Source of the DNA: a virus
Strand: one strand, 5' to 3'
IMG/VR virus record: IMGVR_UViG_3300042295_000140
Coordinates: 1 to 27,058 of that record
DNA length: 27,058 nt
This document shows positions 895 to 27,058 of the stretch, one piece after another. A model generated the notes under the pieces. That model saw only the letters and a list, made by a program, of their open reading frames with translations, ran no database searches and was not told where the DNA came from. The translations under genes were made by a program, and so were the position numbers. How positions within the stretch are numbered: position 1 is the stretch's first letter; each line of letters opens with the position of its first letter.

Positions 895-1057
895 CTTCTT
901 CACCTAATGCATATTCGCATGCTTCTCTAGCCTTGAATACGGTGTCCCATATCGTTTTAAGTTCGTCTGTATCAACGCTGAATAGATGCGGCGCTAAGAA
1001 TTTCTGAACGTCATCTAAGGCTTTATCAGCGATAACAACTATCGACTTATAATCCAC
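887..1057 (-). CDS. Small hypothetical protein, 56 aa
   Basis: I do not recognise this protein. Starting from GTG 1055-1057 it reads VDYKSIVVIADKALDDVQKF and ends in the acidic tail CEYALGEEDE. It is probably helical and acidic. The frame is open further upstream, but that part would lie wholly inside the recA gene and does not look like protein, so I place the start at the GTG that overlaps the recA stop (TAA at 1047-1049) by 11 bp. No strong ribosome-binding site is visible, so translation is probably coupled to recA. The TGA overlaps the ATG of the next gene by 8 bp. The tight packing supports a real gene. Confidence 0.55.
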   Translation of the reverse strand: MDYKSIVVIADKALDDVQKFLAPHLFSVDTDELKTIWDTVFKAREACEYALGEEDE

Positions 1058-2063: not shown

Positions 2064-2071
2064 TGTTTTCC

Positions 2072-5674: not shown

Positions 5675-5832
5675 TGGTTTAGGTAGTCCGTGATCCTATC
5701 GTAAAGATCGATTGCAGAGTGTTGCAGGTTTGGAAGGATTGAGCAAGTTTTTAAAACCTGCTGCATTACCAGTAGATCGCTGCGGGTAAACATTATGGAA
5801 GGCTCAGGTGGTGCCTTCCTTACTGATTTCAT
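5671..5832 (-). CDS. Small hypothetical protein, 53 aa
   Basis: I do not recognise this gene. It starts at ATG 5830-5832 and reads MKSVRKAPPEPSIMFTRSDL, continuing through a helical region (LLVMQQVLKTCSILPN) to YDRITDYLNQ. AAGGAG lies 5 nt upstream, overlapping the end of the preceding gene, and the TGA overlaps the next gene's ATG (ATGA). This tight fit and a good ribosome-binding site make it convincing despite its length. It has a basic N-terminus, no membrane segment and no cysteine pair. It may be a small helical DNA- or protein-binding factor, but nothing specific can be said. Confidence 0.7.
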   Translation of the reverse strand: MKSVRKAPPEPSIMFTRSDLLVMQQVLKTCSILPNLQHSAIDLYDRITDYLNQ

Positions 5833-5834
5833 GT

Positions 5835-6242
5835 CTACTCCTTCATTAGAATAAAAGCAAATGTCTCTTTCTCTGAGTACAGACGCTTAACTTCGTCATC
5901 AGGGATAACCCCTGCAAAGTTGGCAGCGAGCAACCCATCCTCATTGAGAACTGTAATTGTTTCCAAACAAGAGTCTTCCAACTTGTATTTGGTAACTAAT
6001 TCCATAGCGACATCTTCATCAAGAATCTGAGAGACACGGCGCTCCCGTTTAACTCCCGTGACGTTGTCAATGGGTTCTTCCAGTTCAAAGTATGAAGACC
6101 CACGATCGTCTACCTCGCCTTGTTCTGCGAGGTAGGTCATCAGGTGCTTCTTGGCGGTGTCTTCGTTCTTTTGAAGACGCTCCCGGCCATGTCGGAACTG
6201 GAGATAGTGGTGAATGTAGTCCTCAATCTCAGGATCAATCAT
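5835..6242 (-). CDS. Hypothetical protein, 135 aa
   Basis: No family is recognised with confidence. The first 40 residues form a charged helix (HHYLQFRHGRERLQKNEDTA), followed by a beta-containing region, DRGSSYFELEEPI, then a conserved-looking core KRERRVSQILDEDVAMELVT and a C-terminal strand TFAFILMKE. The helical N-terminus followed by a small alpha/beta domain resembles accessory proteins found in phage replication modules. It sits downstream of the SNF2 ATPase across a 44-bp gap, the largest gap within the replication operon, and its stop lies 2 bp before the next start. AAGAGAG is placed about 5 nt before the ATG. Confidence 0.6.
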   Translation of the reverse strand: MIDPEIEDYIHHYLQFRHGRERLQKNEDTAKKHLMTYLAEQGEVDDRGSSYFELEEPIDNVTGVKRERRVSQILDEDVAMELVTKYKLEDSCLETITVLNEDGLLAANFAGVIPDDEVKRLYSEKETFAFILMKE

Positions 6243-6286
6243 CAGTGCTCTCTTAAATAGGGTGGATGGTCAAGGTACATTAATAA

Positions 6287-7843
6287 TCAATTATCGGCAA
6301 GGAACTGACGCAGGCTCGTTAGATCCAGCGGAAGTTGGCCCTTTGCGTCATATTGCCCGTCAATAAAGGCTTCGCTGATTTTCCTCTTCTGAATCAGCAT
6401 GTCGTATTGACGCTCTTCGATAGTCCCCTTACAAAACATTGAATCGATAACAATCGTTTCATGCTTAGAAGAAGTCCTATCGATACGGGCCACTCGCTGT
6501 GCGAAAGAACCCGCAGACCATGGAAGGTCATAACTAATCAAATGAGTACCGGAGTCTAGGTTTACACCATAGGCTCCTGCATCGCTTGATAAGAAAACCC
6601 GACAAGAATAGTCGGAATTAAACTTAACTATACGCTCGTCTCTAACACTGGAGGGAACGTCCCCCGAGATAAGAGTGTGTCCATACTTGGCTTTTTTCAA
6701 CTCTGCTGAAATGATTGCCAGCATCGCCTTGAAGCCCGAGAAGATCACGACCTTGTTCATAGGGTCCTCTGACAAGATGTCGTTAACTGTCTCCATTAAC
6801 GCAACTAATTTGGTTGACGTAGAAGGAGCCTTATCTAAGCGGCCCGACTCCTTCAACTCCGAAGCGTATTGAGAACCTCCTTTGGACTCCTCGTCATCAA
6901 AGTCAGAAGCACTTTTGAGAAGGAGAGCCGGATGGTCGCATAGGAGGCGCATCGCAGTGACCCGGGACATAATCATCCCCTTGAACTGGTTAGCAGCCTC
7001 ATCGTCACCACGACCATAATTAGCCAGCAGATCAAATCCACCCATACCCGCCGCCATAGCCATATCGATAAGATCAATAAGATCAAGTTTGATTTCATCG
7101 TAAAGTTTCTTGCTCCAGTCATCCAGCGGAGTCGGGGTCTCCAACGTAAGGACTTTGGGAAGAAATTCAGCGATATCAGATCGACTGCGTCGGAACATTG
7201 ACTCAGTCAAGGCTGACGCAAGAGTATCTAAGTTTTTATAAAACTTCGGTCGGCCCCAATTGTCCCGGGTAATGAATGTCCTGTCGAACTTATGGAAGGA
7301 CCCGAGAACGTCAGGGTCTACGAACTCCATAATGGAGAACAGTTCTTCAGGACGGTTCTCTACAGGCTGTCCCGACATACCAAACCGGTAGTCGGTATGT
7401 TTACCAAGAGCCTTCATGTGGCGAGACTTCTTGGCCTTGAAACTCTTAATGTTTGTGATTTCGTCAGCGATGATGAAGTCGATTGGAAGATACTCCTGAA
7501 TCAGATCCCAATCGTGGATAAGAGCCTCATAGTTAAGAATTGTGTATCGATACATATGGGCTTGCTTGTATTGAGCGGTCCTCTGCTTCTTGTTACCGTC
7601 AATGACCATGACACTAGGCTTTGCCCAATACTCAATTTCACGCTTCCACTGAAACTTGGTTGAGTTCTGAACAAACACAGCACCAGCGATGATCTTCCGC
7701 TCGGCGGCCAATTTCTCCACGGTTTCAATAGCCGTGCGAGTCTTTCCCGAACCCATAGTCATGGCTAGTAGCAGGCTCCCACGATGGAGAGCCTGCTCAA
7801 TTGCTTCCTCTTGATAAGGACGAAGAGGGGGAAGTTCAGTCAT
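6287..7843 (-). CDS. SNF2-family DEAD-like helicase/ATPase
   Basis: From ATG 7843 the protein has 518 residues with both RecA-like lobes. Lobe 1 has the Q-like LRPYQEEAIEQAL, Walker A MGSGKT (30-35), motif II ADEIT (126-130; DEIT instead of DEAH) and motif III RFGMSGQPVENRPEELFSIM (153-172), typical of SNF2 proteins. Lobe 2 has VVIFSGF, DAGAYGVNLDSGTHLISYDL and the arginine finger motif QRVARIDRTS (about 449-458). Phage SNF2 proteins translocate on double-stranded DNA, remodelling bound proteins or replication intermediates. The frame extends 50 residues upstream, but that part overlaps another convincing small gene, so I take the ATG overlapping its stop codon. A linker between the lobes (SDFDDEESKGGSQYA) is acidic. 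Confidence 0.88.
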   Translation of the reverse strand: MTELPPLRPYQEEAIEQALHRGSLLLAMTMGSGKTRTAIETVEKLAAERKIIAGAVFVQNSTKFQWKREIEYWAKPSVMVIDGNKKQRTAQYKQAHMYRYTILNYEALIHDWDLIQEYLPIDFIIADEITNIKSFKAKKSRHMKALGKHTDYRFGMSGQPVENRPEELFSIMEFVDPDVLGSFHKFDRTFITRDNWGRPKFYKNLDTLASALTESMFRRSRSDIAEFLPKVLTLETPTPLDDWSKKLYDEIKLDLIDLIDMAMAAGMGGFDLLANYGRGDDEAANQFKGMIMSRVTAMRLLCDHPALLLKSASDFDDEESKGGSQYASELKESGRLDKAPSTSTKLVALMETVNDILSEDPMNKVVIFSGFKAMLAIISAELKKAKYGHTLISGDVPSSVRDERIVKFNSDYSCRVFLSSDAGAYGVNLDSGTHLISYDLPWSAGSFAQRVARIDRTSSKHETIVIDSMFCKGTIEERQYDMLIQKRKISEAFIDGQYDAKGQLPLDLTSLRQFLADN

Positions 7844-8015
7844 TGATCCAAAGTCGAATACCGGGGACGCAAGGGTCCCACCCGTCTTCCCATGCCTGTT
7901 CTTCTTCCTTGGTATTAGGAAGCCCTTCATGGGTAACACACGTTGCGTCGGAACAGTAACCCTTATCAATTCCGTACTGAATCCATTCATCAATGGTCAT
8001 TTCAATTCCGCTCAT
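7836..8015 (-). CDS. Small conserved phage protein (EWI..GI.KGYC family)
   Basis: This 59-residue protein reads MSGIEMTIDEWIQYGIDKGY, then CSDATCVTHEGLPNTKEEEQ and WEDGWDPCVPGIRLWIND. I associate the pattern EWI..GI..GYC....C.THEG.P.T..E...WE.G.DPC with a small protein family of unknown function that recurs in actinobacteriophages. Cys21, Cys26, His29 and Cys49 could bind a metal or form disulphides. The start may be ATG 8015 (14-bp overlap with the upstream gene, GAGGAAG upstream) or ATG 8000, one base after the upstream TGA. The stop overlaps the start of the SNF2 ATPase. It has been hidden by the longer overlapping helicase frame. Confidence 0.72.
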   Translation of the reverse strand: MSGIEMTIDEWIQYGIDKGYCSDATCVTHEGLPNTKEEEQAWEDGWDPCVPGIRLWIND

Positions 8016-8235
8016 TTTTCCACTTCCTCATGTTATAAAAGTTCATAGACCACCACATGAATGACATAGCAATGAATCCGGGTTTCCCGTAAATAAGGCT
8101 GTACACAAACCACGGGACAGAGTGCGTTAATACAATGGCCCACCCCCACCACAACTTCTTACCGACAAACCACATTCCTGTGATGCCAATTAGTTCGAAG
8201 AAGAATAGGACCCAAGTCCAAGTGTTTTCAGCCAC
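8002..8235 (-). CDS. Small membrane protein, three helices
   Basis: The 77-residue protein is dominated by hydrophobic and aromatic residues: WTWVLFFFELIGITGMWFVG (6-25), WWGWAIVLTHSVPWFVYSLIYG (29-50) and FIAMSFMWWSMNFYNMRKW (54-72), with positively charged residues at the C-terminus. Three membrane-spanning segments are likely. The final segment, FxxMSxMWWxxNxYNxRKW, resembles the end of PnuC-type nicotinamide riboside transporters, and similar short proteins occur in many actinophages, but it is far too short to be a full transporter. The function is unknown. The start overlaps the stop of the upstream gene by 8 bp. Confidence 0.68.
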   Translation of the reverse strand: MAENTWTWVLFFFELIGITGMWFVGKKLWWGWAIVLTHSVPWFVYSLIYGKPGFIAMSFMWWSMNFYNMRKWKNERN

Positions 8236-8401
8236 GGTTTAGTGGGGGAAGGATAGTAATAACACCTTCAATGTGAATAGCAAGAAACTTAGCGAAGTCT
8301 TCCTTACCTTCGGGAGAGTGCATATCGTATGCACGTCCAACCAAGGTATCCCAGCGGCGTGAGTTTACATATTCGTGTACTGCTTCTTCAATAGTATTCA
8401 T
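8228..8401 (-). CDS. Small hypothetical protein, 57 aa
   Basis: The product begins MNTIEEAVHEYVNSRRWDTL and continues GRAYDMHSPEGKEDFAKFLA to a hydrophobic end. It is predicted to be helical; I do not recognise it. The ATG at 8401 is chosen over a start 36 bases upstream because GAGGA lies 5 nt before it and the upstream extension would overlap the preceding gene. The preceding gene's stop lies one base before this ATG. The C-terminal IEGVITILPPL could be a strand or membrane-proximal segment. Confidence 0.6.
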   Translation of the reverse strand: MNTIEEAVHEYVNSRRWDTLVGRAYDMHSPEGKEDFAKFLAIHIEGVITILPPLNRG

Positions 8402-8402
8402 A

Positions 8403-8633
8403 TCAGTCCTCAGGAATGATCGTAGGGAAGGGGACACTATCCGTGTCCCGCATTACATAGATACCAGCAATAGTGTGGTTACCACATTGGCAACACAGTT
8501 CAAGCGGGTATCCGGGCGCAGTAGCAGGTATTGAATAGGAGACTGGTACCCACTCTCCGTCATCAGTTTCAGCCCACTCGGCAGTTTCGTAAACCCAACA
8601 AGGGTCACAAATAGGTTGGCGTGCTCTGCTCAT
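8403..8633 (-). CDS. Small cysteine-pair protein, 76 aa
   Basis: The protein has an N-terminal pair CDPC (9-12), an acidic middle region (ETAEWAETDDGEWVPVSYS) and a second cluster ELCCQCGNHT (46-54). Cys9, Cys12, Cys47 or Cys48 and Cys50 are spaced like a zinc-binding pair of knuckles, followed by a strand AGIYVMRD. A small zinc-binding fold is therefore likely. I know no specific function, though cysteine-pair proteins of this size are common beside phage primases. AGGAG lies 4 nt before the ATG. The primase gene ends 7 bp upstream. Confidence 0.6.
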   Translation of the reverse strand: MSRARQPICDPCWVYETAEWAETDDGEWVPVSYSIPATAPGYPLELCCQCGNHTIAGIYVMRDTDSVPFPTIIPED

Positions 8634-8640
8634 CAGTCTC

Positions 8641-9543
8641 CTAGTGATTAGTCAGGTTAAGTGAAATACTGCGATGCCAAGCGGCGAGTAGGTCCTCATC
8701 GGACACTACGTCTCCGGGGTCTTTTACATCAAGCCCGTTGTAGTCAAAGTCGAATACAACGCAACCTTTCTTTGTAAGGCGCTTGTGTAGCAGATCCGTG
8801 GCTCGTTTACCAACGGAATCGTTGTCCATTGCAGAAATTACATAGCGGAAAGTTCGTGATAGAAGATTCATCTGTTCCGAACTAATGGCCGCTCCAAAAC
8901 TTGATACCGCCGGGATACCGACTCCATACAGACGAACGGCATCAAGAGGGGATTCAACGATTGTTATCTTGCTCTCATTCTTGAACAAATGGAATCCAAA
9001 CAGAGTTGTTGACTTCTCCATACCAGTTGGATGGTTTAGGACGATGCCCTTCTGACGGAACTGATATCCCATTAGTTTCCCGTTAGGTGTACGGACAGGT
9101 ATTACCCATGTCTTGTTTGTACCATCCCAGCGAATTTCAAAATGATCTGCGGCATCTCGGGAAAGGTGTCGGCGCTCAAGGAGCCGGTCAGGTAAATCCG
9201 TGTAGTTCTGCAAAGACCATTCATCTACGAGAGGTCCAGTTTCCTTCTCTACAGATTTGTCCCTGTTGAACGATGAAAGCACAGACTGCTTGGATAGTTC
9301 CCATTCCAAGTCGTCGGGAACTTCACCGACAATGTCTCGGTAGAGAGTTGATAGAGATCCGGCATATCCGCAAGAGAAGCAGTGATGTACATAGGTCTTG
9401 GCGTTGATCGACCAAGATGGGTGTCCGTCTTCCTTCCCTGTTCGTGCCAAGTGCATCGGGCACTTCGCCAATAGTTCATCACCGGTCTCCCTCAGGACAT
9501 GGATATCAAGTTCGTAAAGAATACTTTCGATATCAAGCAACAT
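8641..9543 (-). CDS. DNA primase (CHC2 zinc finger plus TOPRIM)
   Basis: This 300-residue protein is a compact DnaG-type primase. The zinc-binding motif is CPMH (28-31) with HHCFSCGYAG (53-62), giving the CHC2 pattern C-x2-H...C-x2-C. A linker leads to the RNA-synthesis core with WVIPVRTPNGKLMGYQFR, then TOPRIM motif IVESPLDAVRL (E197) and the metal-binding AMDNDSVGKRA (D240, D242). The length is about half that of bacterial DnaG, and no separate helicase-binding domain is evident. It makes RNA primers for the polymerase encoded downstream. The start overlaps the DnaB-like helicase stop by 11 bp, so primase and helicase are probably coupled in translation and work together at the fork. Confidence 0.9.
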   Translation of the reverse strand: MLLDIESILYELDIHVLRETGDELLAKCPMHLARTGKEDGHPSWSINAKTYVHHCFSCGYAGSLSTLYRDIVGEVPDDLEWELSKQSVLSSFNRDKSVEKETGPLVDEWSLQNYTDLPDRLLERRHLSRDAADHFEIRWDGTNKTWVIPVRTPNGKLMGYQFRQKGIVLNHPTGMEKSTTLFGFHLFKNESKITIVESPLDAVRLYGVGIPAVSSFGAAISSEQMNLLSRTFRYVISAMDNDSVGKRATDLLHKRLTKKGCVVFDFDYNGLDVKDPGDVVSDEDLLAAWHRSISLNLTNH

Positions 9544-10861
9544 CTTCGTCGTCGTCCCACTGGCTATGAAGCGATGAAGGCTTAGGAGCGCTATTGGAGT
9601 TAGCGATAGGCATTTGATTATTTATCATCTGCTCGTAAGTGTTGTGATCAACCTCTTCGATAAGACCCTTGCTCCAATCAAAATTGACATACGCTTCACC
9701 CTTAGGGCTTGATCGTGAAGCAAGAACCTTGAAGCGTGACATTCCTTGGATCTGCTCGTGTGGTTCAACACCAAACACAATGTCAGAGTCCTGAGCGAAT
9801 GAGGAGGAGTATCCGATGGATTCCATCTTCAAGCCGCCCTTAGAGCGATACAGCATGGCCTGAGTGGATATCACAATAGGTATGCGTGCTGTCTGAGCGA
9901 GACGCTTAAATCCTCGGGTAATGCTGGTGAGAGCCTGAGGCGTTCCCTTGTCGTTACCGTTCTCGTCATCCATGAGATAGACACCATCGACAATTACTAG
10001 AGCAGGTTGATACTGCTGGATCTTTGCCTGCACACCTGAGACGGTGATAGCGCTAGTTATGTCGCTGGTAATAGTGAACCCTTCCATCTCCTTACGGAGA
10101 CCCAGTACTTTCTTTATCTTCGATTCCTCAATCGGATCGAAAGTTCCTGTAAGGATCTTTGTAAGCCCTACTCCTGAGATTAGAGAAACAAGTCGGTCTT
10201 CCTGTTCTTCGGTACCCATTTCGAAAGTAACAAACAGAATACGATTCCCATTACGGTGAGCATTAAAAGCCAGTTTGAGAAGAATGCTTGACTTACCGGC
10301 TTTAGGAGTTCCGACCATGGTAATCAGTTGCTCAGGTTGTAATCCTCCAGTAAGTCGATCAATACCATCAAGTCCTGTAGTGATACCTCTGAGATAACCG
10401 GGATTATCACGACGATCAATAAGTCGATCCATGATGCGACTTTGGGACAAGAAGAAATCTGTGTCCCGACCTTGTGAGATCTCATGGGCAGCATCAGCCA
10501 ATCCTTGGCGAATGATCCCTTCTAGATCGTCACCAATTTCAGGCCCTTCTTCTTCGTTCAGTCGATTGACATATTCCTGCATCGCATTGGTAAGAATTAC
10601 CTTCTTGCGATCCTGCTTGAGTTGGTTCAGGTAATAATCAACAGGCTCTGAGTAATCAACAAACTCATATGTCGGATAAGCCTTGTGAACTACATCCTCG
10701 GACGGTGGCTTGCCGTACTTCTTGTAATGCCCAATAACCATGTCCCAAATCTGAGCATGTCGATCATCGGGAAAGAAGTCGTCAGAGATCTTAGATTCAA
10801 TAAACGGGAGTAATTCCCCTTCAAGAACAATCTTAGAAAGGCAAGCGTTCTGAGTGTCCAC
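9533..10861 (-). CDS. DnaB-like replicative helicase
   Basis: The 442-residue protein has a DnaB-type N-terminal helical domain (about 1-100) and a RecA-like ATPase core. Walker A is GTPKAGKS (184-191), the H1a motif is VTFEMG (211-216), Walker B is ALVIVDGVYLM (287-297), and a later Gln-containing motif is IVISTQAM (329-336). ASRSSPKGEAYVNFDW (381-396) corresponds to the arginine-finger region. It should form a hexamer that unwinds the fork, loaded by the DnaC-like protein encoded two genes upstream. The C-terminal 40 residues are disordered and acidic (SQWDDDEDVA), perhaps a contact site for primase or SSB. The stop overlaps the primase start. Confidence 0.92.
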   Translation of the reverse strand: MDTQNACLSKIVLEGELLPFIESKISDDFFPDDRHAQIWDMVIGHYKKYGKPPSEDVVHKAYPTYEFVDYSEPVDYYLNQLKQDRKKVILTNAMQEYVNRLNEEEGPEIGDDLEGIIRQGLADAAHEISQGRDTDFFLSQSRIMDRLIDRRDNPGYLRGITTGLDGIDRLTGGLQPEQLITMVGTPKAGKSSILLKLAFNAHRNGNRILFVTFEMGTEEQEDRLVSLISGVGLTKILTGTFDPIEESKIKKVLGLRKEMEGFTITSDITSAITVSGVQAKIQQYQPALVIVDGVYLMDDENGNDKGTPQALTSITRGFKRLAQTARIPIVISTQAMLYRSKGGLKMESIGYSSSFAQDSDIVFGVEPHEQIQGMSRFKVLASRSSPKGEAYVNFDWSKGLIEEVDHNTYEQMINNQMPIANSNSAPKPSSLHSQWDDDEDVA

Positions 10862-16245: not shown

Positions 16246-18153
16246 TCACCCCAGCAGGTAAGAAGATCCAAGGAGTTCATTAGGAACACCGAGAGTAAGT
16301 GTTGTATCAGGCTCTACTGCGAACTGGGAAGCAGAGTTCAATTGAGGGCTAAACATACATGCAGCGATATGTCGCTCATAGGAGTTATTAAAAGCGATAT
16401 ACGGAACAGCGTATACATATTCCTCACCACGAAGAGATAGTGGAGACTCAGACTGAACTGAATATCTGACTAGGTTAGTAGTATCGGCACCATTTGCGGT
16501 AGAAGTAATTTGCTTGCTGAATGAGATGAAATCGTCATTGATATCAAAAGTATGATTAGCCGGTAAATTGAACCACATAACGCCAGCCGTTACGTTTGCA
16601 GCAGTGCTACCGGGGTCAGTACCAAGGCGCTTAGCGTAGAACGAAAACGTATAGATATTGCCCGAGTCACAGCGGATACCATGAAACTGGGGGTAAAACG
16701 ATACGTCTTCCACTAGGTAGAATCGGTTAATAACTTCCCCTACGCCTAGACCGCACATAAGTAGAAGCCCTTTATCGGCAGAAGCAGCAGTACCATCTGA
16801 TGCGTTATCGTCAGGATTATAGGTAGCGTAAAGCGCACGTTTCCTAATAGAAGGAGAGTTAGCCTCATCGACCGTTGCGATATCGATTGGGTTCCAATCC
16901 GTCGCCGTAGCGCCCCATTCTTCTGAGTTAACGAACGTATCCTCGGTACCTACAAGGCTTCCCCAAGACCCAGTATTAAATACAAACTCAGCGTCATCCG
17001 TGAGATTCATCATATTGACTCCCTCAAGAATTTTGTTGTTGTACTTAGTGCTTGCTAGAGCCAACTTCTGAATTCCTCGGGTACTTCCACGCTCGTCATA
17101 CAACTTGTTGACGGTAGCCAACAGTGACCTATACCTAACGTCTCCGAGACCTTCCTCTGCGTCTACGCCCATGTTGGTTTCTCCAAGGGCATGGAGTAGG
17201 CCCTCGTGAACGTAATCCACGTTGTATACGTTCTCTACGCCTTCCGCAAGGGTACGGGTGTAGTCAGCCTCAAATCCTATTGCCCGAACAAGTCGCTCAA
17301 GAACTCCTGCCTGACCAGTACCGGCAACGAACTCCCGGTCTTTAATACGGTAGTAGGGAGGAATTAGATCGTAAAAAGTCTCAAAGTGCTTGTAGTTATT
17401 AGGAACAAGAGCCTCAGTGGAACCACCTGACACCCACCGAGCACTACTGTAACTACCCTTAATATAGAAGAACAGCGTGTAGTAATACCAGCGACCGGAG
17501 GGTAGATTACGGTCGTACAGACTTTGCGATGATGCTACTGGACGCTGGAATTCATTATCCGCAGCAGCAGGCTGGGTCTCCATAACCATAGGGACCTGAA
17601 GATTTCCGCTATAGGAAAATACGTCCGTATATTTACGCTCAAAGATTTTCTGACCATCAAGCGGTGTCATCGGGTAACCAAATGCAGATCTAGTAACCGC
17701 CACTAGTGGTGTGAGTCCGGCTTCTACATCATCAAGAACTTTCTTATTGACTACGTCATCTACGCCCCAAACGATTCGGGTAGTGTTGTAATCCCAAGGT
17801 TCAATATAGAAGGTAGTTCTAGTAGACAGTGAGTCAATGATTGTGTCGGAAGGCTGGTACCTGACATACGCAGGAGCCGGTACCGTTGCGATACCGGTAG
17901 GAGACACGGCTGTAGAACTAACGTCGGCGCTAACAAGAGTGTAGGTAAAAGTTGTATCGCTAAGTATCTCTTTGATGGTAAATGATCCATCAAATACATC
18001 ATCTACGCCTGAGATAAGTACAGTCCACCCGGCGGCAAAATTGTGATCGCTATCAGTTGTGATGAGGGCGACGTTGGTAGTTAGAGACTTAAAAGTGATA
18101 GATGCGGTCGCTGACCTAACAACATCAACATCGGTCTCAAAAATAGAACTCAT
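16246..18153 (-). CDS. P2 gpI-like baseplate/tail protein, fused to beta modules
   Basis: The 635-residue protein has three parts. Residues 14-92 form a beta module (WTVLISGVDDVFDGSFTIKE, then TTFTYTLVSADVSS) matching repeats in the gpJ-like protein encoded before it. Residues about 255-370 resemble P2 gpI: FYDLIPPYYRIKDRE, LERLVRAIGFEADYTRTLAE, YRSLLATVNKLYDERGSTRG. The C-terminal 240 residues include YTFSFYAKR and other strands like a carbohydrate-binding jelly roll. gpI homologues form part of the baseplate wedge and connect the fibres. The next gene is the fibre-like protein, in keeping with that role. The ATG overlaps the stop of the gpJ-like gene (ATGA). Its length, about three times that of P2 gpI, reflects the added modules. 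Confidence 0.75.
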   Translation of the reverse strand: MSSIFETDVDVVRSATASITFKSLTTNVALITTDSDHNFAAGWTVLISGVDDVFDGSFTIKEILSDTTFTYTLVSADVSSTAVSPTGIATVPAPAYVRYQPSDTIIDSLSTRTTFYIEPWDYNTTRIVWGVDDVVNKKVLDDVEAGLTPLVAVTRSAFGYPMTPLDGQKIFERKYTDVFSYSGNLQVPMVMETQPAAADNEFQRPVASSQSLYDRNLPSGRWYYYTLFFYIKGSYSSARWVSGGSTEALVPNNYKHFETFYDLIPPYYRIKDREFVAGTGQAGVLERLVRAIGFEADYTRTLAEGVENVYNVDYVHEGLLHALGETNMGVDAEEGLGDVRYRSLLATVNKLYDERGSTRGIQKLALASTKYNNKILEGVNMMNLTDDAEFVFNTGSWGSLVGTEDTFVNSEEWGATATDWNPIDIATVDEANSPSIRKRALYATYNPDDNASDGTAASADKGLLLMCGLGVGEVINRFYLVEDVSFYPQFHGIRCDSGNIYTFSFYAKRLGTDPGSTAANVTAGVMWFNLPANHTFDINDDFISFSKQITSTANGADTTNLVRYSVQSESPLSLRGEEYVYAVPYIAFNNSYERHIAACMFSPQLNSASQFAVEPDTTLTLGVPNELLGSSYLLG

Positions 18154-20462
18154 GTGTTCACCAAACCGCCGCTAGCGATTACCCAACCCGTCGTATGAAT
18201 AGTGTCAATATCAGGATCAATACGAGGCAGGTTATACGACGGAGTTTCAATATCCTCGATGGGACCAGTCTCCCCGGTGATCTTCAACGTATCAAGGGTG
18301 ATGTAGTCAACACCCTCTACGGCTAGAGCGGCCCTGTACACATCTCCAATAGAAATTCTCTTGCCAAAACTTACGTTGTCATATGCGAAGATGTTTTCAA
18401 TAGCAGCCTGTACTGCCGCTCTTACGCTTTCCCGGTTATACAGAGGACGAACCTGTACGTTCATCTTTACGTTTACGTTGGTCCACTCAACAGGCTCTCC
18501 GTAAACAACGGAACCAATCAACTTCTTGTCACTCAAGTATGACTCAAGAGAGTTGATAAGAAGTTGCATTTCAGCACTAGTAGTAGTGATCGTACCCGTG
18601 GTCGCCTGAGCCTCAAGAATATCGGAGGCTGTTGTGTCATACGAAATACCCGCAGCGCCCGTAACTGTTCCCGACGTAACAGCGGCGCTAGAAACATTTG
18701 CATTAGTTTTCTTATAGGAAATATCGTACCTAGCGTTGATGCTATCGTAAGTGATTTCACTAATAACATGGGTACCGTCAAATACAGCATCTGAGATAGA
18801 AACAGTGATTGGTTGCCCAATCACGAAACTTCCCACGGCAGCAACTGAGATACTGGCCTTATTGGAGGAGAGTACCTTGTTAACCACATTAACAGGGCTG
18901 CCTGTGTAAAAAACCTTAGTAGTCTTAACACTACCGTTTAGACCAGTGCCGATTGCCGTGGCATAAACCGTCTGACCCACACTTAGGTTTAAAGAATCTG
19001 AGATAACGACGGTGGCGACCCCCGAGTTGACGTACCTAATAGAGGCATCGCTAGTGACATACCCTACTGATTCTGAACTAGAAGCCACTCGGACATACAC
19101 AGCCGTGTAATTCTCACCATATGCAATTGCCTTGGTAATACCGGGAACCTGTAGGGCTAAATTGACATAATCATCAATAGTGACTGCTCGTTGCTTAAGT
19201 GATGCTGAGCGAGGGATCGAATAGCGCATAGATTCGATGGATTCAATATCAGCACCGCCTACAGGTGCGGCTGTATTAGTTACCGTCACACCGCTTTGGG
19301 TAGCGTAATCGTTATTAAGAACGGTAATTGTGTTAACGCCTAGGCTATTTGCACTTACACCTGACCCGTAGCGATAACTTACATAAATATCTACGTTCGT
19401 CGGAGGTACACGCCCTGAAGAGTTATCACCGAATAGAACATGCGTGTAGTTGTTATCGTCTACATATGTGACAAATGCGGACTGGGTAGGAGTTGCTAGA
19501 GATATCTTGTCCACACGAGACCACTGTACAACCTGTCCGCCTTCCCTTGTATATACCTGAACTGTCCGATCGATAACGCCCGGATTAGCCAATACAAACT
19601 CTGCGTTAGGGACACCCTTACTGACACCGGCCAGTGTAGGTGTGATAGATGCACCTTCAGACGCTGCGGTAAGTCGTGACACCGAATACACAGTCGAACC
19701 CGTGCTAACAGGCTTACCTGCCGTAGTATCTAGCGTAACGTCGAAGTTGAGTTCAAAAACGGTCACGCTGCCGCTTGAGTCGGGAGCCGTAGTCACATAG
19801 GTTCCTGCCGGAATAATTACTACGCTTCCGGTAGTCACCGTAGGGCTTCCACTAATAGTCGCTTCTCCGGTAGCGGTGGATACGACGCTATAAGTAATAT
19901 CAACAGCCGTGGTATTTGCTGGACTCTTGACAGAGTCAACCACAAAGATTCCATCGTAAGGAGTACCGACACCCGATACGGTAATCGTCTGACCGATCAC
20001 CATATTTACAGCGTAAGTATCATTGGAGATTTCCATACGAACAACGCCGTTTTCTACGGAAGCACTGTTTACGTCGTAGGTGTATACCGGAATAGATCCG
20101 CCCGGAAGACTGGCGGTGTCCCATTGCCAAGTAAATGACAAGGGTACGGTGGCTGCTCGCTGGCCTAATGGCGTGTATCCAAACATGTCAGCGATATACA
20201 TGACGCTCTGACGGCGAATAGCCGTCCCTAGGAAAGCCTCCGAAGCGACACGGTCAACGTAGTAGTTAGTAACGTCACCTGAGTACGCATACAGTTCCAG
20301 CAATAGGGTACCGAAGTCTCCAGTTTCCCCTACTGTCTGCCACTCAGGGAGGAGGCCCTTAGCAAGCCCGACCAGCATAGATCGGATAGACTTGTAATCA
20401 CGGCTCGTGTAATCAAGAACGATCCTGTTAGTGGATGAAGATGTTGTGGCGATGGTGCTCAC
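18150..20462 (-). CDS. Baseplate wedge protein, P2 gpJ-like
   Basis: The 770-residue protein has the N-terminal signature of gpJ/T4 gp6 proteins: LDYTSRDYKSIRSMLVGLAK (16-35), WQTVGETGDFGTLLLELYAY (41-60), DRVASEAFLGTAIRRQSVMY (70-89) and LGQRAATVPL. Core segments GVSKGVPNAEF, THVLFGDNSSGRVPP and VYTREGGQVVQW, and the C-terminal VNVKMNVQVRPLYNRESVRA, also fit. Three copies of a beta module (about 137-205, 477-530 and 533-602; G.T.(T/V)...G....DG...V..V) are inserted, making it longer than P2 gpJ (about 300). It should form the baseplate wedge with gp25 and gpI. Its start overlaps the gp25 stop by 4 bp. Confidence 0.88.
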   Translation of the reverse strand: MSTIATTSSSTNRIVLDYTSRDYKSIRSMLVGLAKGLLPEWQTVGETGDFGTLLLELYAYSGDVTNYYVDRVASEAFLGTAIRRQSVMYIADMFGYTPLGQRAATVPLSFTWQWDTASLPGGSIPVYTYDVNSASVENGVVRMEISNDTYAVNMVIGQTITVSGVGTPYDGIFVVDSVKSPANTTAVDITYSVVSTATGEATISGSPTVTTGSVVIIPAGTYVTTAPDSSGSVTVFELNFDVTLDTTAGKPVSTGSTVYSVSRLTAASEGASITPTLAGVSKGVPNAEFVLANPGVIDRTVQVYTREGGQVVQWSRVDKISLATPTQSAFVTYVDDNNYTHVLFGDNSSGRVPPTNVDIYVSYRYGSGVSANSLGVNTITVLNNDYATQSGVTVTNTAAPVGGADIESIESMRYSIPRSASLKQRAVTIDDYVNLALQVPGITKAIAYGENYTAVYVRVASSSESVGYVTSDASIRYVNSGVATVVISDSLNLSVGQTVYATAIGTGLNGSVKTTKVFYTGSPVNVVNKVLSSNKASISVAAVGSFVIGQPITVSISDAVFDGTHVISEITYDSINARYDISYKKTNANVSSAAVTSGTVTGAAGISYDTTASDILEAQATTGTITTTSAEMQLLINSLESYLSDKKLIGSVVYGEPVEWTNVNVKMNVQVRPLYNRESVRAAVQAAIENIFAYDNVSFGKRISIGDVYRAALAVEGVDYITLDTLKITGETGPIEDIETPSYNLPRIDPDIDTIHTTGWVIASGGLVNT

Positions 20463-20851
20463 TGGGCACTCCCTGTACTGTCTGCGGACATGTCAAGGCC
20501 GACGGTAACGCTGGACTCGGGCATGTAACTAGAGGATTTGTAATGAACGTCAATGAATACCACGTTGGGTTCTGCGTCAGATACGTCTACTTCGACGCTC
20601 TTGATGAACGAACGTGGTACGAATTGGACCAGTCTATCACGGACATATGCTGCCGTATCCTGACGCTCCAACATGTCTGATGGATCAAACAGGACTGACT
20701 GAATATCGCAACCCCAGTCGGGGTGCATTACCCGCTCGCCCTGATTAGTTGTCAGAGCGTCGATGACCTGATTCCTGACAATACGATCGTAGTTGTCAGT
20801 CATAGTCAGTGTTCCATTAGAAATGGAAAGTGGGATATCAAAGGCTTTCAT
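20459..20851 (-). CDS. GPW/gp25-like baseplate wedge protein
   Basis: This 130-residue protein matches the size and signature of the GPW/gp25 family: a short N-terminal strand, IVRNQVIDALTTNQGERVMH (24-43) followed by PDWGCDIQSVLFDP. The GERVM.P..G motif is the family hallmark. Next come YVRDRLVQFVPRSFIKSVEV and VVFIDVHYKSS, the usual strands. The family is historically named lysozyme-like but acts structurally: gp25 joins the baseplate wedge to the tail sheath start and helps trigger sheath contraction. That supports a contractile-tail phage. AGGA lies 7 nt before the ATG. The gpD-like hub precedes it and the gpJ-like wedge follows, the standard order. Confidence 0.9.
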   Translation of the reverse strand: MKAFDIPLSISNGTLTMTDNYDRIVRNQVIDALTTNQGERVMHPDWGCDIQSVLFDPSDMLERQDTAAYVRDRLVQFVPRSFIKSVEVDVSDAEPNVVFIDVHYKSSSYMPESSVTVGLDMSADSTGSAQ

Positions 20852-20855
20852 ATCA

Positions 20856-22112
20856 TTATCCTAACAAGCCGTTCTGAATTACAGGAGTAGCCATACCGGG
20901 AGGGACGATAAACGGGGGAACGGGATCAGAGACCCTAAGGGTATCTCTGATGAACTCAGGAGTTCTCCAAGTAGATTCCCAGTAAGTCTTAGGAGGAGTT
21001 CCACGGACTGTTTTTACTAGACGTGGACTCCCCTGATTAGTGCCCGACAGGGTTGTTCGATAATCAGTATTACTGAATCTCGTATTCAACGTATCACGGG
21101 CTAGATCTAGTGCTGTCTGAAAGGAGTTATTAGTGAACGAGTGTTCGACTCCTCTAACAAACCATACTCCGTCATATTCATTACGACCGGTAGGGTTACC
21201 ACTAACTTGTACAGATATGTTTACGCCGGGAACTATACTGGCGTTACCATTGATTCGTGCGGTGGCCTGCTGATTCCAAAAATCAATACGACGTTCCCAA
21301 GAGTCGCTGTAAATCTTCGCCATATCCCTGTCTTTGATAGGAGTATCAGTAGACATACGGTATGGGTAGGTACTTAGAGGTTGGGTGAGTCGTGCGGTAG
21401 TACCGTCAAAGTACCCGAATGAGGGCTTTACATTGTCTCTAATACGGAGAGATTGAGTAGTGGGATTGAAGTCAAGAAGTTGTCTTGACGGATCAAGTAC
21501 ATTGTCAGACTTTATGTATCTCTGACTAACTGCGCTCTCTGTTAGTACCCGTTTAGGATCTAACATCCGTACTATACCGTTATGGACATATAAGGCGTAC
21601 CCAAGTCGTGTAGCGAGGGTTTGGGCGAACTCCCAGTCGCTTTCCGTCGTCTGAGCCAGTGCAGGCCATACATATGTACTGTCTTCTACTTGACAGCCTA
21701 AATTGTGGTTGGAGACGATCTCCGCAAACACTGAGGATGCAGTTCGCTTAGGGAAAAATCTAGGCTGACCTGACTGCATAGGCCATGTAGTACCGAAGCA
21801 TGCGACATCAACAATAGTATCTTGTTGGTAATCCTGATTAGGATTAATAGTAATCACATAACCGTAGAACGTACCGCCTGAAAATCTAGGGCCGTATCGG
21901 AACGTAATTGGTTCCCCGACAAATCTATCTATCTGAGACTTGGTAAGTTGCGTCGTGATAATCGCAACCTCATGCTTATTTTCGGCATTAGACAACCGTA
22001 CCTGCTTCAATTCTGAAGAGGTAAGATTCAGCAGTTCTCCCTTAATTTCTACATCAGTGATGAGAATTTGCTGGAGAGAATTGAGTGCTGCGTTGTTTAA
22101 GGCTACGACCAT
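20856..22112 (-). CDS. Baseplate hub protein, gpD/gp27-like
   Basis: This 418-residue protein belongs to the late control gpD / VgrG / gp27 hub family. Key segments are ITFRYGPRFSGGTFYGYVIT, VACFGTTWPMQSGQPRFF, TASSVFAEIVSNHNL and especially ESDWEFAQTLATRLGYALYV followed by HNGIVRMLDPKR, the typical ...W.fa..lA...G...y...g.....dp motif. The later part (RINGNASIVPGVNISV, WFVRGVEHSFTNNSF) matches the final barrel. It forms the trimeric hub below the tail tube, to which the central spike attaches. The C-terminal 70 residues are proline-rich and may be flexible. It follows a LysM-like baseplate protein and precedes gp25. No dedicated spike gene (gpV) was found in the window. Confidence 0.85.
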   Translation of the reverse strand: MVVALNNAALNSLQQILITDVEIKGELLNLTSSELKQVRLSNAENKHEVAIITTQLTKSQIDRFVGEPITFRYGPRFSGGTFYGYVITINPNQDYQQDTIVDVACFGTTWPMQSGQPRFFPKRTASSVFAEIVSNHNLGCQVEDSTYVWPALAQTTESDWEFAQTLATRLGYALYVHNGIVRMLDPKRVLTESAVSQRYIKSDNVLDPSRQLLDFNPTTQSLRIRDNVKPSFGYFDGTTARLTQPLSTYPYRMSTDTPIKDRDMAKIYSDSWERRIDFWNQQATARINGNASIVPGVNISVQVSGNPTGRNEYDGVWFVRGVEHSFTNNSFQTALDLARDTLNTRFSNTDYRTTLSGTNQGSPRLVKTVRGTPPKTYWESTWRTPEFIRDTLRVSDPVPPFIVPPGMATPVIQNGLLG

Positions 22113-22444: not shown

Positions 22445-23965
22445 TCAAACCCTTAATCCTAGGTTTCCAATATTGAGATAAGTATCGTTAGCCGCTCCAG
22501 CAGGGCGGATAGCGTGAGTATGAAAATTAGGACTTCCGTAGATAGCACCAAAACTGAAGTCCAAATTCCGTGGTCCGCCTCTACCCGCTGTTCGCCAAGG
22601 GGGAGCCGATTCGTAAGTGTAGACTCTTCCGTTTTTTACTTCTTTTACAAATGCCACATGTGCGTTTCGACTAATAATTAAGTCTCCTCGCTGTAAGTAA
22701 TTTGCTAAGAAATTATCGTTAAACGGTACGAATGTATTTGGGCCTGCAATAACAGTACCCAGTTCAAACGCTTTGGCTAGCAGACTTCCTGTATATCCTG
22801 CCGTCGCTGATTGTCCGATAGCATCTAGTGCTCCAGCCTTACCGTATGCCCAAATAACCAATGCTGAGCAATCAAGATACCCGGGATTATCACTTGTATT
22901 AATTGGACGAACCTGATCATACTGAACCGTAGAGTTCCCCAAACTCATTGCTGCTTGAAGCGCTCTTTCTCTAGCGCTTCCGTTAAGCGGCCCAATATTG
23001 GCACGAACACTTGTTATAGCACCGTTAGCAGTGGTCACACCTGTAGACGCATTAGTGGTAGCAGGATCGTCGGCAATTAAAGCATCCTGTACGTCATTGT
23101 AAGTGACTTCATACTGAAGGTTTTCGTCGTAAGGAATAGTTGCTTCAAAAACACCTTCGCTATCGGTACTAGCGAACGTGAAGTCTTCCTTAACTGGACC
23201 AAAGTAGTAGACCATCATGGATAGTGTTACTACCATACGAGTAGGGGTCATTTTATGATCAAACTTCTGATACTGAACTGAGGCCCTAAATGCCCGACCT
23301 TGGACGGACAACTGAGGACTAAACACCACAGTAATGTTACGGGGATTAATCATCATAATCCCGTTGTCCTGAAGAGCATTAGTCTGTTCGCCGGGAACGA
23401 CCCCACGGACTACTAAATCAAAGTAATCATAATCCTCAAGAACTCCACGAGGCATAGATCCATTTGCGTTTTCAGTTTGGCGATCAAAAAATAGACTGAA
23501 TTGAAAATTCAAAATACCGGGAGGGGCAACAAGATTATTAGCCCCATAGATCGTATTGAAGGGATCTAGGGCTTGCTGCTCAACGTATGCAACGTAATCC
23601 CGCTGAATTTCCGCAGGATTGTACATGAAGTACAAGCGATACCCGTCGGTAGGATCTGTGGAGTTGAGGTTACTTCTGCGGATATACCCACGAGAAATCT
23701 GTGGAGTGTTTCCTGTCGTACTACTGGTTACTAGAGATGTAAGCCTTCCTGCGCTACCTGTCTCAAACGGAGGATTAGACCTAGCAAGTGGACTATCGTC
23801 AAGCCTTTCGTACGAATGGCGCTTAAGAAGACTGGAGAAGTTTCTCTCGTTTGCTAGAAATGTATCGAACGCTAGTTCGGGGTTAGAAGTAGAGCGCCCA
23901 TTAGGATCGCTGATAACTAGAGTCGGTACGAACTCGTTAGTAGTTACATAGTTATTAGTCGTCAT
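22445..23965 (-). CDS. Hub-associated tail protein with NlpC/P60 peptidase domain
   Basis: The 506-residue protein has an N-terminal tail domain and a C-terminal wall hydrolase. Residues about 90-297 (GYIRRSNLNSTDPTDGYRLY, FMYNPAEIQRDY, PPGILNFQFSLFFDRQ, NGIMMINPRNITVVF) match the preceding paralogue closely and resemble tube-initiator or CIS tube-type proteins with an F.(Y/F)NP motif. Residues about 330-487 contain YLDCSALVIWAYGKAG (Cys366), RGDLIISRNAHVAFV (His436) and VYTYESAP, the Cys-His pattern of NlpC/P60 endopeptidases, which cut the stem peptide of peptidoglycan. This should help the tail penetrate the wall. The start overlaps the transglycosylase paralogue's stop (ATGA). Confidence 0.8.
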   Translation of the reverse strand: MTTNNYVTTNEFVPTLVISDPNGRSTSNPELAFDTFLANERNFSSLLKRHSYERLDDSPLARSNPPFETGSAGRLTSLVTSSTTGNTPQISRGYIRRSNLNSTDPTDGYRLYFMYNPAEIQRDYVAYVEQQALDPFNTIYGANNLVAPPGILNFQFSLFFDRQTENANGSMPRGVLEDYDYFDLVVRGVVPGEQTNALQDNGIMMINPRNITVVFSPQLSVQGRAFRASVQYQKFDHKMTPTRMVVTLSMMVYYFGPVKEDFTFASTDSEGVFEATIPYDENLQYEVTYNDVQDALIADDPATTNASTGVTTANGAITSVRANIGPLNGSARERALQAAMSLGNSTVQYDQVRPINTSDNPGYLDCSALVIWAYGKAGALDAIGQSATAGYTGSLLAKAFELGTVIAGPNTFVPFNDNFLANYLQRGDLIISRNAHVAFVKEVKNGRVYTYESAPPWRTAGRGGPRNLDFSFGAIYGSPNFHTHAIRPAGAANDTYLNIGNLGLRV

Positions 23966-25389
23966 CCTACAAACCTCGGGACCTGAGGAGTGTTGGCCGC
24001 TACAAAAGCCCTAGCCTCATCCATATTTACTGATCGAAGGTGAGACCCATCCGGCGTTTTGTAATTACCCGATAATTGCCAAGGGACAAACCTAGTACCA
24101 TTATTGGACAATCTCATAGCAATACTCACATTAGTCCATGGATCAGTAATTTGTTCTGCTGACAGACCTCCCCAATTGACTTGGTTAATCTGCCAAATAC
24201 CTACGTCCATAGTTCCATTAGTATTGACACCCGCAACATTTGCTACAAAGCCACTTTCACGCTTAGCGAGTGCCCAAAGAAATGTTGCTCCCTCAATTGG
24301 GCATTCTTGAGCAAGAAGTAACCCTAGGATCTGCTGATCAGAAAGAGTTACTGGTGCGACGTTAGAAGTAATCATACTATTACCCTGTCTAACAACTCTT
24401 ACAGGAAACGGCCCCTGAGGAATGTCTGCGGGTCGTACACCCGGAGGACCGTTATACCCGTTACCGGACCCGCTACTAAACGGTCCTGAGAAATTAGCGT
24501 TTACGGTATTACCGTTGGACACGGTATCGGTAAGTTGTGCGTCAGTAACGTCTACAAAATTAGCCTGATACGACAAGTTCTCGTCAAATGGAATAGTCGC
24601 TTCGAAGATACTCTCTGATGTGAACTCGCTATAATTAGGCAGAGTTTGAACAGGTCCGATGTAGAAAGCCTTCATAGTTATTGAGATAGACATCCGAGTA
24701 GGAGTCATCTTGTTATTGAATTTCTCAAACCTTACTGAAGCGTTGTATGGGCGGCCATGAACCGTTAGTTCAGGGCCAAACACCACAGCGATATTTCTAG
24801 GATTAATCATCATAATCCCATTATCAGGAATAGCATTACCGCTGCTACTAGTGTCTCCCACAACCCCACGGACCACTAAATCGAAGTAGTCATAGTCTAC
24901 TTTTGTACCGGGATGGCTAGGGTCTGTTGCAACCTCTAGTTGCCTGTCGAACAGCAGTTCAAAAGAGAAATCAAGAATACCCGGAGGAGCGGTCATGTTG
25001 TTAGACCCAAACATTGTGTTATAGGGGTCTAAAGACTGCTGATCCAAGTAAGCCATATAGTTACGTTCGATAGTTTCAGGGTTGTACATGAAGTACAAGC
25101 GTTGATTACTAGTGGGGTCCGATGCATCAATGTCTGATCTACGGATATACCCACGAAGAATCTTGCTATTTCTCAAACCTAGACTGCTAGCAATATGGTT
25201 ATTGTTAGAAGTCAATTTAAACGGAGGGTTAGACAATCCCTGATTAGAAGATGCAAGTCTTTCTAACCCATACTGATACTCAGATATCACGTCAACCGTG
25301 TTGTTCAAAATAGACACACGGGAATCGGCGTTACTGTTTCTAGTTACTCCAATATTCCTATAGTTATTGTTTTCCACATAGGGAGGCAT
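23962..25389 (-). CDS. Hub-associated tail protein with lytic transglycosylase domain
   Basis: From ATG 25389 the protein has 475 residues; a GTG 15 bp upstream is less likely because the ATG overlaps the previous stop (TAATG) and GGAG precedes it. Residues about 75-285 (RGYIRRSDIDASDPTSNQRL, YFMYNPETIERNYMAYLDQQ, NGIMMINPRNIAVVF) are shared with the next gene. A Gly/Pro/Asn-rich linker (SGPFSSGSGNGYNGPPGVRP) leads to a lysozyme-like domain: FLWALAKRESGFVANVAGVN with Glu378, and MDVGIWQINQVNW, the G.WQIN motif of transglycosylases. It should cleave glycan strands while the tail penetrates the wall. Paralogy with the downstream gene suggests duplication and C-terminal swapping. Confidence 0.8.
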   Translation of the reverse strand: MPPYVENNNYRNIGVTRNSNADSRVSILNNTVDVISEYQYGLERLASSNQGLSNPPFKLTSNNNHIASSLGLRNSKILRGYIRRSDIDASDPTSNQRLYFMYNPETIERNYMAYLDQQSLDPYNTMFGSNNMTAPPGILDFSFELLFDRQLEVATDPSHPGTKVDYDYFDLVVRGVVGDTSSSGNAIPDNGIMMINPRNIAVVFGPELTVHGRPYNASVRFEKFNNKMTPTRMSISITMKAFYIGPVQTLPNYSEFTSESIFEATIPFDENLSYQANFVDVTDAQLTDTVSNGNTVNANFSGPFSSGSGNGYNGPPGVRPADIPQGPFPVRVVRQGNSMITSNVAPVTLSDQQILGLLLAQECPIEGATFLWALAKRESGFVANVAGVNTNGTMDVGIWQINQVNWGGLSAEQITDPWTNVSIAMRLSNNGTRFVPWQLSGNYKTPDGSHLRSVNMDEARAFVAANTPQVPRFVG

Positions 25390-27058
25390 TATGACTTTCT
25401 CCACTCCCTACGAGCGAATTCAGCCTCAAGGTGGTCGGCAATAGTAGAAGCGGCACGTTGAGCATCTACTGGATTACTTCCAACATTACCTCCTAGCGTA
25501 ATCTCCGTCTTAAAGATAATCGGGGAATCCATCTTGGCATGAATTGTCGGGGCAGTTTGAGACGCAAGTGAAATAGGATCTCCAAAAATAGGAGGTGCGT
25601 TCTTACCCGTAATCGCATCATTAGTCTTAGGTGTGAAGCCTGCGTATTTACTTACGTTGATTTTAATTGAAGACGGCTTATCGATAATGTCGTTAAGATC
25701 TTCCGTAGTAAAATTGGCCTTACCCAATACGTTGGCTAGACCACTAATAGGTGCAGTCATCAATTTAATAAACATGCTGATAGCGTTATCAATCATGCCT
25801 GAAAGGCTTCCACCCATAAGGAACTTAGTAAGAACTCCGGCTAGACCTCCGCCGCCACCATCAAGACCACCTGCTGTCAAAAGCGGGCCAATAATAGGTA
25901 TGCTTCCCATAGCAGTGCTCTTAAGCATGCCGAACAAGTCACCAATAGGTTCTGAATTACCACTAGATGACGGATCTCCAACATGCATTGTTCCAGCCGA
26001 CTGGACGTGCCAAGGTTCCCCAGCGTTGGCTGCCGTCTGAAGACCGAACTTGTGGGCGTTCTGTTGGACCCAGCCTAATTGATTAGTAGGACCAATATCA
26101 GCAGCCCATCCACGAGTATGCATACTCTTAGTAGCAGGACCTACTCGTCCAACTCCCTTAGAGTGCAGCCTGTTTTGCGTAACAGTGTCTCTATATCCTG
26201 ATGAGATCTTCAGTTTAGGGTTAGCCTTCATCATGGCATCGACCTTCTTAGAGAGGTCGGGACTTAGATGCCTAGTGCTAGTACTTCCCGTAGGGCCGTA
26301 ATCACCAACCGGGTCTCCTATAGGAGAATCACCAATCGGGTCACCTAACAGGTTCATCACGTTTCCTACAAGACTCAACCCTGTACCAACTGGAGATGAT
26401 GCCAGTTTGGTAAGAAGGGGCATAAGCATTTCCATAATAGGCGTGGGGAACATAGCCATGGCCGCACCTGCATTAGTGGTGCGTGCCATCTGACCGATAG
26501 TCAAATCCGCTGCTTGCATGCCTACATTGAAACGGCGATCCGCTGATTCACGAGCGTTATACAATCCATACATCTGAGTACCCATTAGATACTCACGACG
26601 AGTTCCCTGTGTAGTGCTACGAAGACGCTCGTAACCAAGATCTTTACCACGGACTCTGTCGATATTCGCTTGCAGTACTTCTGTTTGAGAGTCGTCTCCC
26701 TTAGACAGAAGTTGCTGAGTGATCGGGTTAGTTTGACCGGCATTGGCAAGAGCGTATTGCCACCAATAGTCAACCATGTCCGGTGGAACACCCATCATGC
26801 GGAACCATGCATTGATGTTCGATCCGGGGAAGTTCTGAGACATAAGTTCGTCTTTACCGAACGTCTGACCTTGACTCTTACCGGGTCGCTGCTGCGACAA
26901 AAACTTAAGAATCGCCTCAGCCCATTCAGCAAGGCTCTTGTAACTACCACCCTTGCCGATCATGGTAAATGCACCTTGACCGAGGTATTGACCCATTTGC
27001 TGAGACTGAGTATTGCCTATGTAGTTAGACAGAGAGGAAGCCATACTTCCGGCCCCTA
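25389..27058 (-). CDS. Tape measure-like tail protein with M15 peptidase domain, partial
   Basis: The frame is open to the right edge of the window (four codons, GAGS, precede the first ATG at 27044), and that ATG has only a weak ribosome-binding site, so this is probably the C-terminal part of a longer tape measure protein. Numbered from that Met, residues about 255-350 form an M15/VanY-type domain: KISSGYRDTVTQNRL (279-293), SMHTRGWAADIG (307-318; His309, Asp316) and EPWHVQ (343-348; Glu343, His346), the SxHxxGxAxD and ExxH zinc-site pattern. Hydrophobic helices (FMLMPLLTKLA-like, SIPIIGPLLTAGG, ISMFIKLMTAPISGLANVLG) flank it, as in tape measures. M15 peptidases cut peptidoglycan cross-bridges. 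A separate tail-associated hydrolase gene is the alternative. Confidence 0.72.
   Translation of the reverse strand, partial: GAGSMASSLSNYIGNTQSQQMGQYLGQGAFTMIGKGGSYKSLAEWAEAILKFLSQQRPGKSQGQTFGKDELMSQNFPGSNINAWFRMMGVPPDMVDYWWQYALANAGQTNPITQQLLSKGDDSQTEVLQANIDRVRGKDLGYERLRSTTQGTRREYLMGTQMYGLYNARESADRRFNVGMQAADLTIGQMARTTNAGAAMAMFPTPIMEMLMPLLTKLASSPVGTGLSLVGNVMNLLGDPIGDSPIGDPVGDYGPTGSTSTRHLSPDLSKKVDAMMKANPKLKISSGYRDTVTQNRLHSKGVGRVGPATKSMHTRGWAADIGPTNQLGWVQQNAHKFGLQTAANAGEPWHVQSAGTMHVGDPSSSGNSEPIGDLFGMLKSTAMGSIPIIGPLLTAGGLDGGGGGLAGVLTKFLMGGSLSGMIDNAISMFIKLMTAPISGLANVLGKANFTTEDLNDIIDKPSSIKINVSKYAGFTPKTNDAITGKNAPPIFGDPISLASQTAPTIHAKMDSPIIFKTEITLGGNVGSNPVDAQRAASTIADHLEAEFARREWRKS

Follow-up and report, generated by a model that had tools for sequence, protein, structure and literature searches.

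A probable three-enzyme wall-penetration set on the tape-measure protein and duplicated tube-initiator-like proteins of a contractile-tailed phage

Lysins with one or two catalytic domains are familiar components of phage tails (PMC9863714, PMC6116005, PMC10194240), and in phages of Gram-positive bacteria they usually sit on the hub, the knob, or the tape measure. phi29 gp13, the enterococcal tail-associated lysins (TALs), and Deep-Blue Gp189 place a glycosidase and/or an endopeptidase in tail parts for local cutting of the wall (PMC9863714, PMC10194240, PMC11406892), and in the diffocin of Clostridioides difficile the hub-hydrolase CD1368 joins a lytic transglycosylase to an NlpC/P60 endopeptidase, a combination that has been likened to scissors (PMC10996793, PMC11329794). 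Here we describe three consecutive, overlapping open reading frames (ORFs), all on the minus strand, in the tail module of a 27,058-base virus record (IMG/VR IMGVR_UViG_3300042295_000140), the whole of which is called the window below. They carry an M15 peptidase domain, a lysozyme/SLT-like glycosidase domain, and an NlpC/P60-CHAP-type cysteine-peptidase domain (Table 1). We consider it likely that the three genes form a virion-associated three-cut kit with which a contractile-tailed phage, probably of an actinobacterium, penetrates the cell wall.

The diffocin resembles the window in being a contractile system directed against a Gram-positive wall, with a transglycosylase/NlpC pair near the tube-hub junction. 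In CD1368, however, the trimeric hub carries both domains in tandem, with a transglycosylase of the MltA-like type and no M15 peptidase described, whereas the window's hub carries no enzyme domain detected with Pfam or PHROG and the enzymes are spread over two paralogous CIS_tube proteins and the tape-measure protein. The arrangement is not that of a diffocin-type hub-hydrolase, in which the enzymes are fused to the hub. Streptomyces phage BRock (Borockvirus) has its tail genes in the same order, and a CIS_tube protein follows gp134, which is in the tape-measure position. BRock has two detectable enzyme classes, NlpC/P60 and SLT, both on gp134; no M15 domain was detected, and its single CIS_tube protein (258 amino acids [aa]) is without an enzyme, unlike the two enzyme-bearing copies of the window. 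The N-terminal parts of these two copies show weak sequence and fold matches to the Afp7/PVC7-type tube proteins of contractile injection systems (CIS; Pfam ID PF19266), whose chains have about 225 aa in the PDB; the window's copies add a C-terminal enzyme domain of 120 to 190 aa. Tail lysins themselves are known; what looks like a new variation on them is that a set of three classes is conserved and is carried in part by duplicated tube-initiator-like proteins. Our literature search on tail lysins turned up no enzymes on duplicated tube initiators.

The M15 (VanY/LdcB-like) domain lies in the tape-measure protein. A profile of 12 homologues finds M15 enzymes as its top PDB matches, and the AlphaFold model, with a modest predicted local distance difference test score (pLDDT 68), matches LdcB, VanY, and Ply500 with a Foldseek probability of 1.00. 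Intact zinc ligands and a catalytic Glu are found among H309, D316, E343, and H346 (counting from the ATG at position 27044), which gives the HxxxxxxD and ExxH zinc ligands of the family within an M15 fold. Across the relatives, HxxGxAxD is found in 41/41 domains and ExWH in 39/41.

The domain at the C-terminus of CIS_tube copy 1 exceeds the Pfam cut-offs for SLT_3 (4.3e-8; 33.9 versus 27 bits) and SLT (3.4e-7; 30.3 versus 21.3 bits). The best PDB matches of its profile are c-type lysozymes (1e-10), and EtgA and IagB match it as well. In the alignment, the GTMDVGIWQIN stretch after E383 falls on the Asp52 block of c-type lysozyme, with D400 at the Asp52-like position. With a catalytic Glu, the Q-I-N block, and profile scores above cut-off, the domain belongs to the lysozyme superfamily, and the Glu of the ES motif is kept in 40/40 lysozyme-like domains listed. 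Lytic transglycosylases yield an anhydro-N-acetylmuramic acid (anhydro-MurNAc) product and usually do without a second acid at the Asp52 position. The window's domain has the Asp as well as the Glu of c-type lysozymes, which are also its best-scoring matches, and may therefore be either a transglycosylase or a hydrolase. EtgA, IagB, and the c-type lysozymes share the GTxDxGIxQIN block and the Asp at this position; the window's domain differs from them in being a phage tail fusion. A closely related lysozyme-like module, 52% identical to that of L073, is found in gp26 of the Streptomyces tectivirus WheeHeim (L075:1456-2124), where the annotation as a glycosyltransferase is probably a misannotation.

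For the domain on CIS_tube copy 2, a profile of the window protein and its five closest homologues finds nine PDB chains, all of them NlpC/P60 or related cell-wall hydrolases. NLPC_P60 Pfam matches occur in 7/14 homologues (best 1.6e-6), whereas the window protein itself matches only CHAP, and weakly. The C-terminal part of the AlphaFold model matches the CHAP-bearing endolysins Ly7917 and PlyGRCS (Foldseek probability 0.90-0.99, at E>0.01). C366, H436, and E452 are invariant in the window protein's subclade, and C366 and H436 are invariant in 12 homologues. The catalytic Cys and His, the PDB profile, and the model match together place the domain in the NlpC/P60-CHAP superfamily; its Cys-His-Glu set is probably CHAP-like, with E452 as the predicted third residue.

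The two carriers of these last domains are paralogues, 52% identical over 253 aa, and are duplicated proteins of probable CIS_tube type with swappable C-terminal enzymes. PF19266 was found in 10/14 homologues. In sequence searches of the PDB, copy 1 matches lysozyme and, as the next chain, Afp7 (E=0.089); the copy 2 model has weak Foldseek matches to an Algoriphagus CIS chain and to Afp7/PVC chains (top match 7aeb_M, E=0.0098). By analogy with such proteins, the two fusions probably join the hub and the tube. This paralogy had escaped a sequence-only reading of the window, which had proposed three different wall-degrading domains in three consecutive tail genes, namely, an M15 peptidase in a tape measure-like protein, a lytic transglycosylase-like domain, and an NlpC/P60 domain. 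The searches bear out the overall claim and the M15 assignment, and the catalytic residues, whose loss had been named as fatal to the idea, are intact in all three domains. The second domain is better called lysozyme/SLT-like, and the third holds at the level of the superfamily, with a catalytic set that looks like that of CHAP.

We surveyed relatives in three IMG/VR scans, which left 46 non-redundant contigs after the removal of repeats and near-identical contigs. The set of three activities is nearly universal among them, deep branches included, although its layout varies. The tape measure carries an M15 domain in every contig with a complete gene. In the 34 contigs with a single CIS_tube gene, the lysozyme-like domain is located in the tape measure in 27/28 complete genes, all but that of L061 (25/28 when the modules of L018, L059, and L029 described below are not counted), and the third enzyme is on the CIS_tube protein. 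In the 12 contigs with two CIS_tube genes, the window's included, none of the nine complete tape measures has it, and it is found on copy 1 wherever that end is visible. One of the 12, L024, ends inside this gene and was placed by its similarity to copy 1. The contrast in layout gives a Fisher's p of 8e-8, a count that is not independent since the duplication is one event. The tree shows a single CIS_tube duplication (clade SH-aLRT [Shimodaira-Hasegawa approximate likelihood ratio test] 99; copy clades 99 and 95), and in the tree of the lysozyme-like domain the CIS-borne copies group (90/86) among the tape measure-borne ones. The sequence-only reading had stressed an unusual individual tail with more than the customary one or two enzyme classes. 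Its statement is right in substance, and BRock has two detectable classes; three are nonetheless the rule in the window's own phage family, and what we see is a conserved family trait in which one domain changes its carrier.

The third position changes its enzyme family. NlpC/CHAP occupies it in most contigs, an M23 peptidase (7e-16) on the same CIS_tube module in L007 (6787-8217) and L008 (9480-10895), a VanY-type M15 domain in L033 and L064 (VanY 1.5e-16; M15_4 2.5e-16), and NlpC plus M15 in L037. Such swaps are what ordinary tail-lysin mosaicism would produce, with domains gained and lost by recombination and three of them together being a coincidence of the lineage and not a selected kit. 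Tape-measure and tail-fibre classes are mosaic by sequence across phages (PMC10684548), and the SLT module recurs in a tectivirus and a Prochlorococcus phage. Against this explanation, the set is almost unbroken over the 46 contigs, down to the deep branches, and in the phages with the duplication the glycosidase has gone from the tape measure and is found on copy 1 in all cases that show this end. We consider mosaicism without selection unlikely, though it is the best placed of the alternatives. Judging by the near-universal presence of the set in the phage family and by the glycosidase, which after the duplication occurs on the added copy and is missing from the tape measure, one position for a glycosidase and two for peptidases appear to be maintained by selection.

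A separate observation is a module with the motif EGG..NP.N....GV.NY, which takes the place of SLT in the tape measures of L018 (7138-7557) and L059 (3219-3600) and on CIS_tube copy 1 of L029 (7594-7998) and so occupies the lysozyme slot in both layouts. It has no match in Pfam, PHROG, or NCBIfam. From its sequence and place we guess that it is lysozyme-like and possibly a new family.

In the comparison of the window with L004, synonymous change is close to saturation and nonsynonymous differences amount to 0.06-0.23, and the three genes are, judged by these substitutions, under purifying selection. An arrangement due to chance or to an annotation artefact was also considered and is excluded by the conservation over dozens of contigs together with this substitution pattern.

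Virion-associated lysins are recognised by a wall-cutting domain fused to a structural part of the tail, and both the tape-measure and the CIS_tube fusions show this arrangement. If the proteins are incorporated into the virion as predicted, the two CIS_tube paralogues would form rings between the hub and the tube and hold their enzymes on C-terminal linkers. At contraction, the sheath would drive the hub and the tube initiators into the wall, where the glycosidase on one CIS_tube protein would cut glycan strands around the tip and the NlpC/P60-CHAP-type and M15 peptidases would cut stem peptides or cross-bridges, the M15 domain being delivered by the tape measure as it exits through the tube. 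The resulting local hole in the wall would allow DNA entry. For a transglycosylase and an NlpC enzyme paired at this junction, the diffocin hub-hydrolase is a structural precedent (PMC10996793). The set may be an adaptation of the tail to a thick wall. A stronger version, that the kit is obligate, is one we put forward only tentatively, at a little below even chances: each position may change enzyme family or carrier and is rarely empty, and in the window's clade two stacked rings derived from the duplication would present multiple copies of the glycosidase and peptidase at the tip.

Several points weigh against the three-cut kit. In Pfam scores, several of the window's modules fall short of the cut-off or match weakly: the M15 domain reaches 21.1 bits for Pfam VanY (E=2.8e-4) against a gathering cut-off of 25, the CIS_tube modules reach 21.8 and 14 bits for PF19266 against 27, and the copy 2 protein alone gives at best CHAP with E=0.021. 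The window's M15 domain is by this measure a divergent member, and its assignment is carried by motif and fold. The copy 2 model is poor outside the C-terminal domain (mean pLDDT 46), where modelling of the N-terminal module probably failed because of a shallow alignment, and the E-values of its Foldseek matches lie above 0.009. Where the rings would sit and in how many copies is predicted by analogy with Afp7-like proteins. The hidden Markov models (HMMs) of the domain survey were built from proteins of the same family, with Pfam agreeing on the subset on which it was run. In one single-CIS_tube contig, L061, no lysozyme-like domain was detected, and the tree of this domain, built to test for a move from the tape measure to copy 1, does not show the source of the CIS-borne copies.

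The divergence of all three domains, two of them below the Pfam cut-offs, also leaves room for one or two being catalytically dead and serving in wall binding or in a structural role, so that the working set would be one or two enzymes. A structural role has been given to the virion lysin of Staphylococcus phage phi11, according to the title of a reference cited in PMC6116005. The window nevertheless has the catalytic residues of all three domains, the relatives keep them almost without change, and the replacements are other enzyme families, M23 and VanY, that score above their own cut-offs, which makes dead domains rather improbable. It is more improbable by far that the proteins are intracellular endolysin-like or processing enzymes for lysis or tail maturation and not virion parts: the M15 region has weak matches to PHROG endolysin families, but every one of the enzymes is joined to a structural module, of either the tape measure or CIS_tube, and is encoded in order between the tube and hub genes.

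The three-cut kit suggests that some contractile-tailed phages may need three cuts for host entry, with the set kept while the carrier changes, and it makes testable why phages of Gram-positive bacteria carry several wall enzymes. It also draws attention to tube-initiator-like proteins in the role of enzyme carriers, for which the literature searched gave no example. Together, the modules make up a small natural collection of wall-cutting domains in which peptidase families can be swapped.

Judged by the best matches of the baseplate wedge protein gpJ (ranked on bit score) and of DNA polymerase I, the closest relatives in culture are Borockvirus-like myophages of Streptomyces. WhiB genes occur in 2/19 related records and are absent from the window's own 40.8-kb contig. 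These matches suggest that the host is likely an actinobacterium. A profile search of genome contigs with the CIS_tube alignment gave no bacterial or prophage relative, and a tblastn search with copy 1, the full tape measure, and the L012 CIS_tube protein gave no match in 50,697 phage records.

Table 1. Features of the window's tail module, with domains listed under the genes that carry them.
Feature	Position	Strand	Details
Tape-measure protein, C-terminal part	25389..27056	-	555 codons in window; ORF open at window's end
M15 (VanY/LdcB-like) zinc-peptidase domain	25995..26255	-	Pfam, PDB profile, Foldseek, residues, motif in relatives
CIS_tube copy 1 with C-terminal lysozyme/SLT-like domain, 480 aa	23962..25404	-	16-base overlap with tape-measure gene
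CIS_tube (tube-initiator-like) module, copy 1	24643..25233	-	Pfam PF19266 E=1.7e-4, below cut-off; own HMM
Lysozyme/SLT-like glycosidase domain	23992..24363	-	E383 (24256-24258), D400 (24205-24207), GIWQIN motif
CIS_tube copy 2 with C-terminal NlpC/P60-CHAP-type domain, 506 aa	22445..23965	-	4-base overlap with preceding gene
CIS_tube module, copy 2	23186..23779	-	Paralogous to copy 1
NlpC/P60-CHAP-type cysteine-peptidase domain	22472..23041	-	C366 (22868-22870), H436 (22658-22660), E452 (22610-22612)
Small baseplate protein (LysM/gpX/gp53-like), 108 aa	22117..22443	-	PHROG baseplate wedge subunit 1.5e-4
Baseplate hub (YqbQ/gpD type)	20856..22112	-	Pfam; PHROG tail protein 5e-14
gp25-type sheath initiator/wedge	20459..20851	-	Pfam GPW_gp25 1.5e-12
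Baseplate wedge gpJ	18150..20462	-	Pfam Baseplate_J 2.2e-9

The end of the window truncates the tape-measure gene: the ORF 25389-27044 runs on to 27056. Contig L003 (40.8 kb), which is 99.99% identical to the window over 9,173 bases, holds the complete gene (L003:5473-8016, 847 aa), and this rules out the window's ATG at 27044 as the real start. PHROG tape-measure families match the protein weakly. Upstream of the tape measure, L003 encodes the tail sheath, a gp19-type tube protein, and a PF12322 baseplate protein, and downstream of the two fusion genes the window encodes the small baseplate protein, the hub, gp25, and gpJ. The module is that of a contractile tail. For the small baseplate protein, the LysM-like label is a candidate from position and inspection only.

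The gpI-like protein (16246-18153) and gpJ share a module of about 70-90 aa that is also present in several relatives and may be an Ig-like decoration of varying copy number. Positions 1047-10861 of the window hold a replication block with RecA, DNA polymerase I with exonuclease, an SNF2-type helicase, primase, and a DnaB-like helicase.

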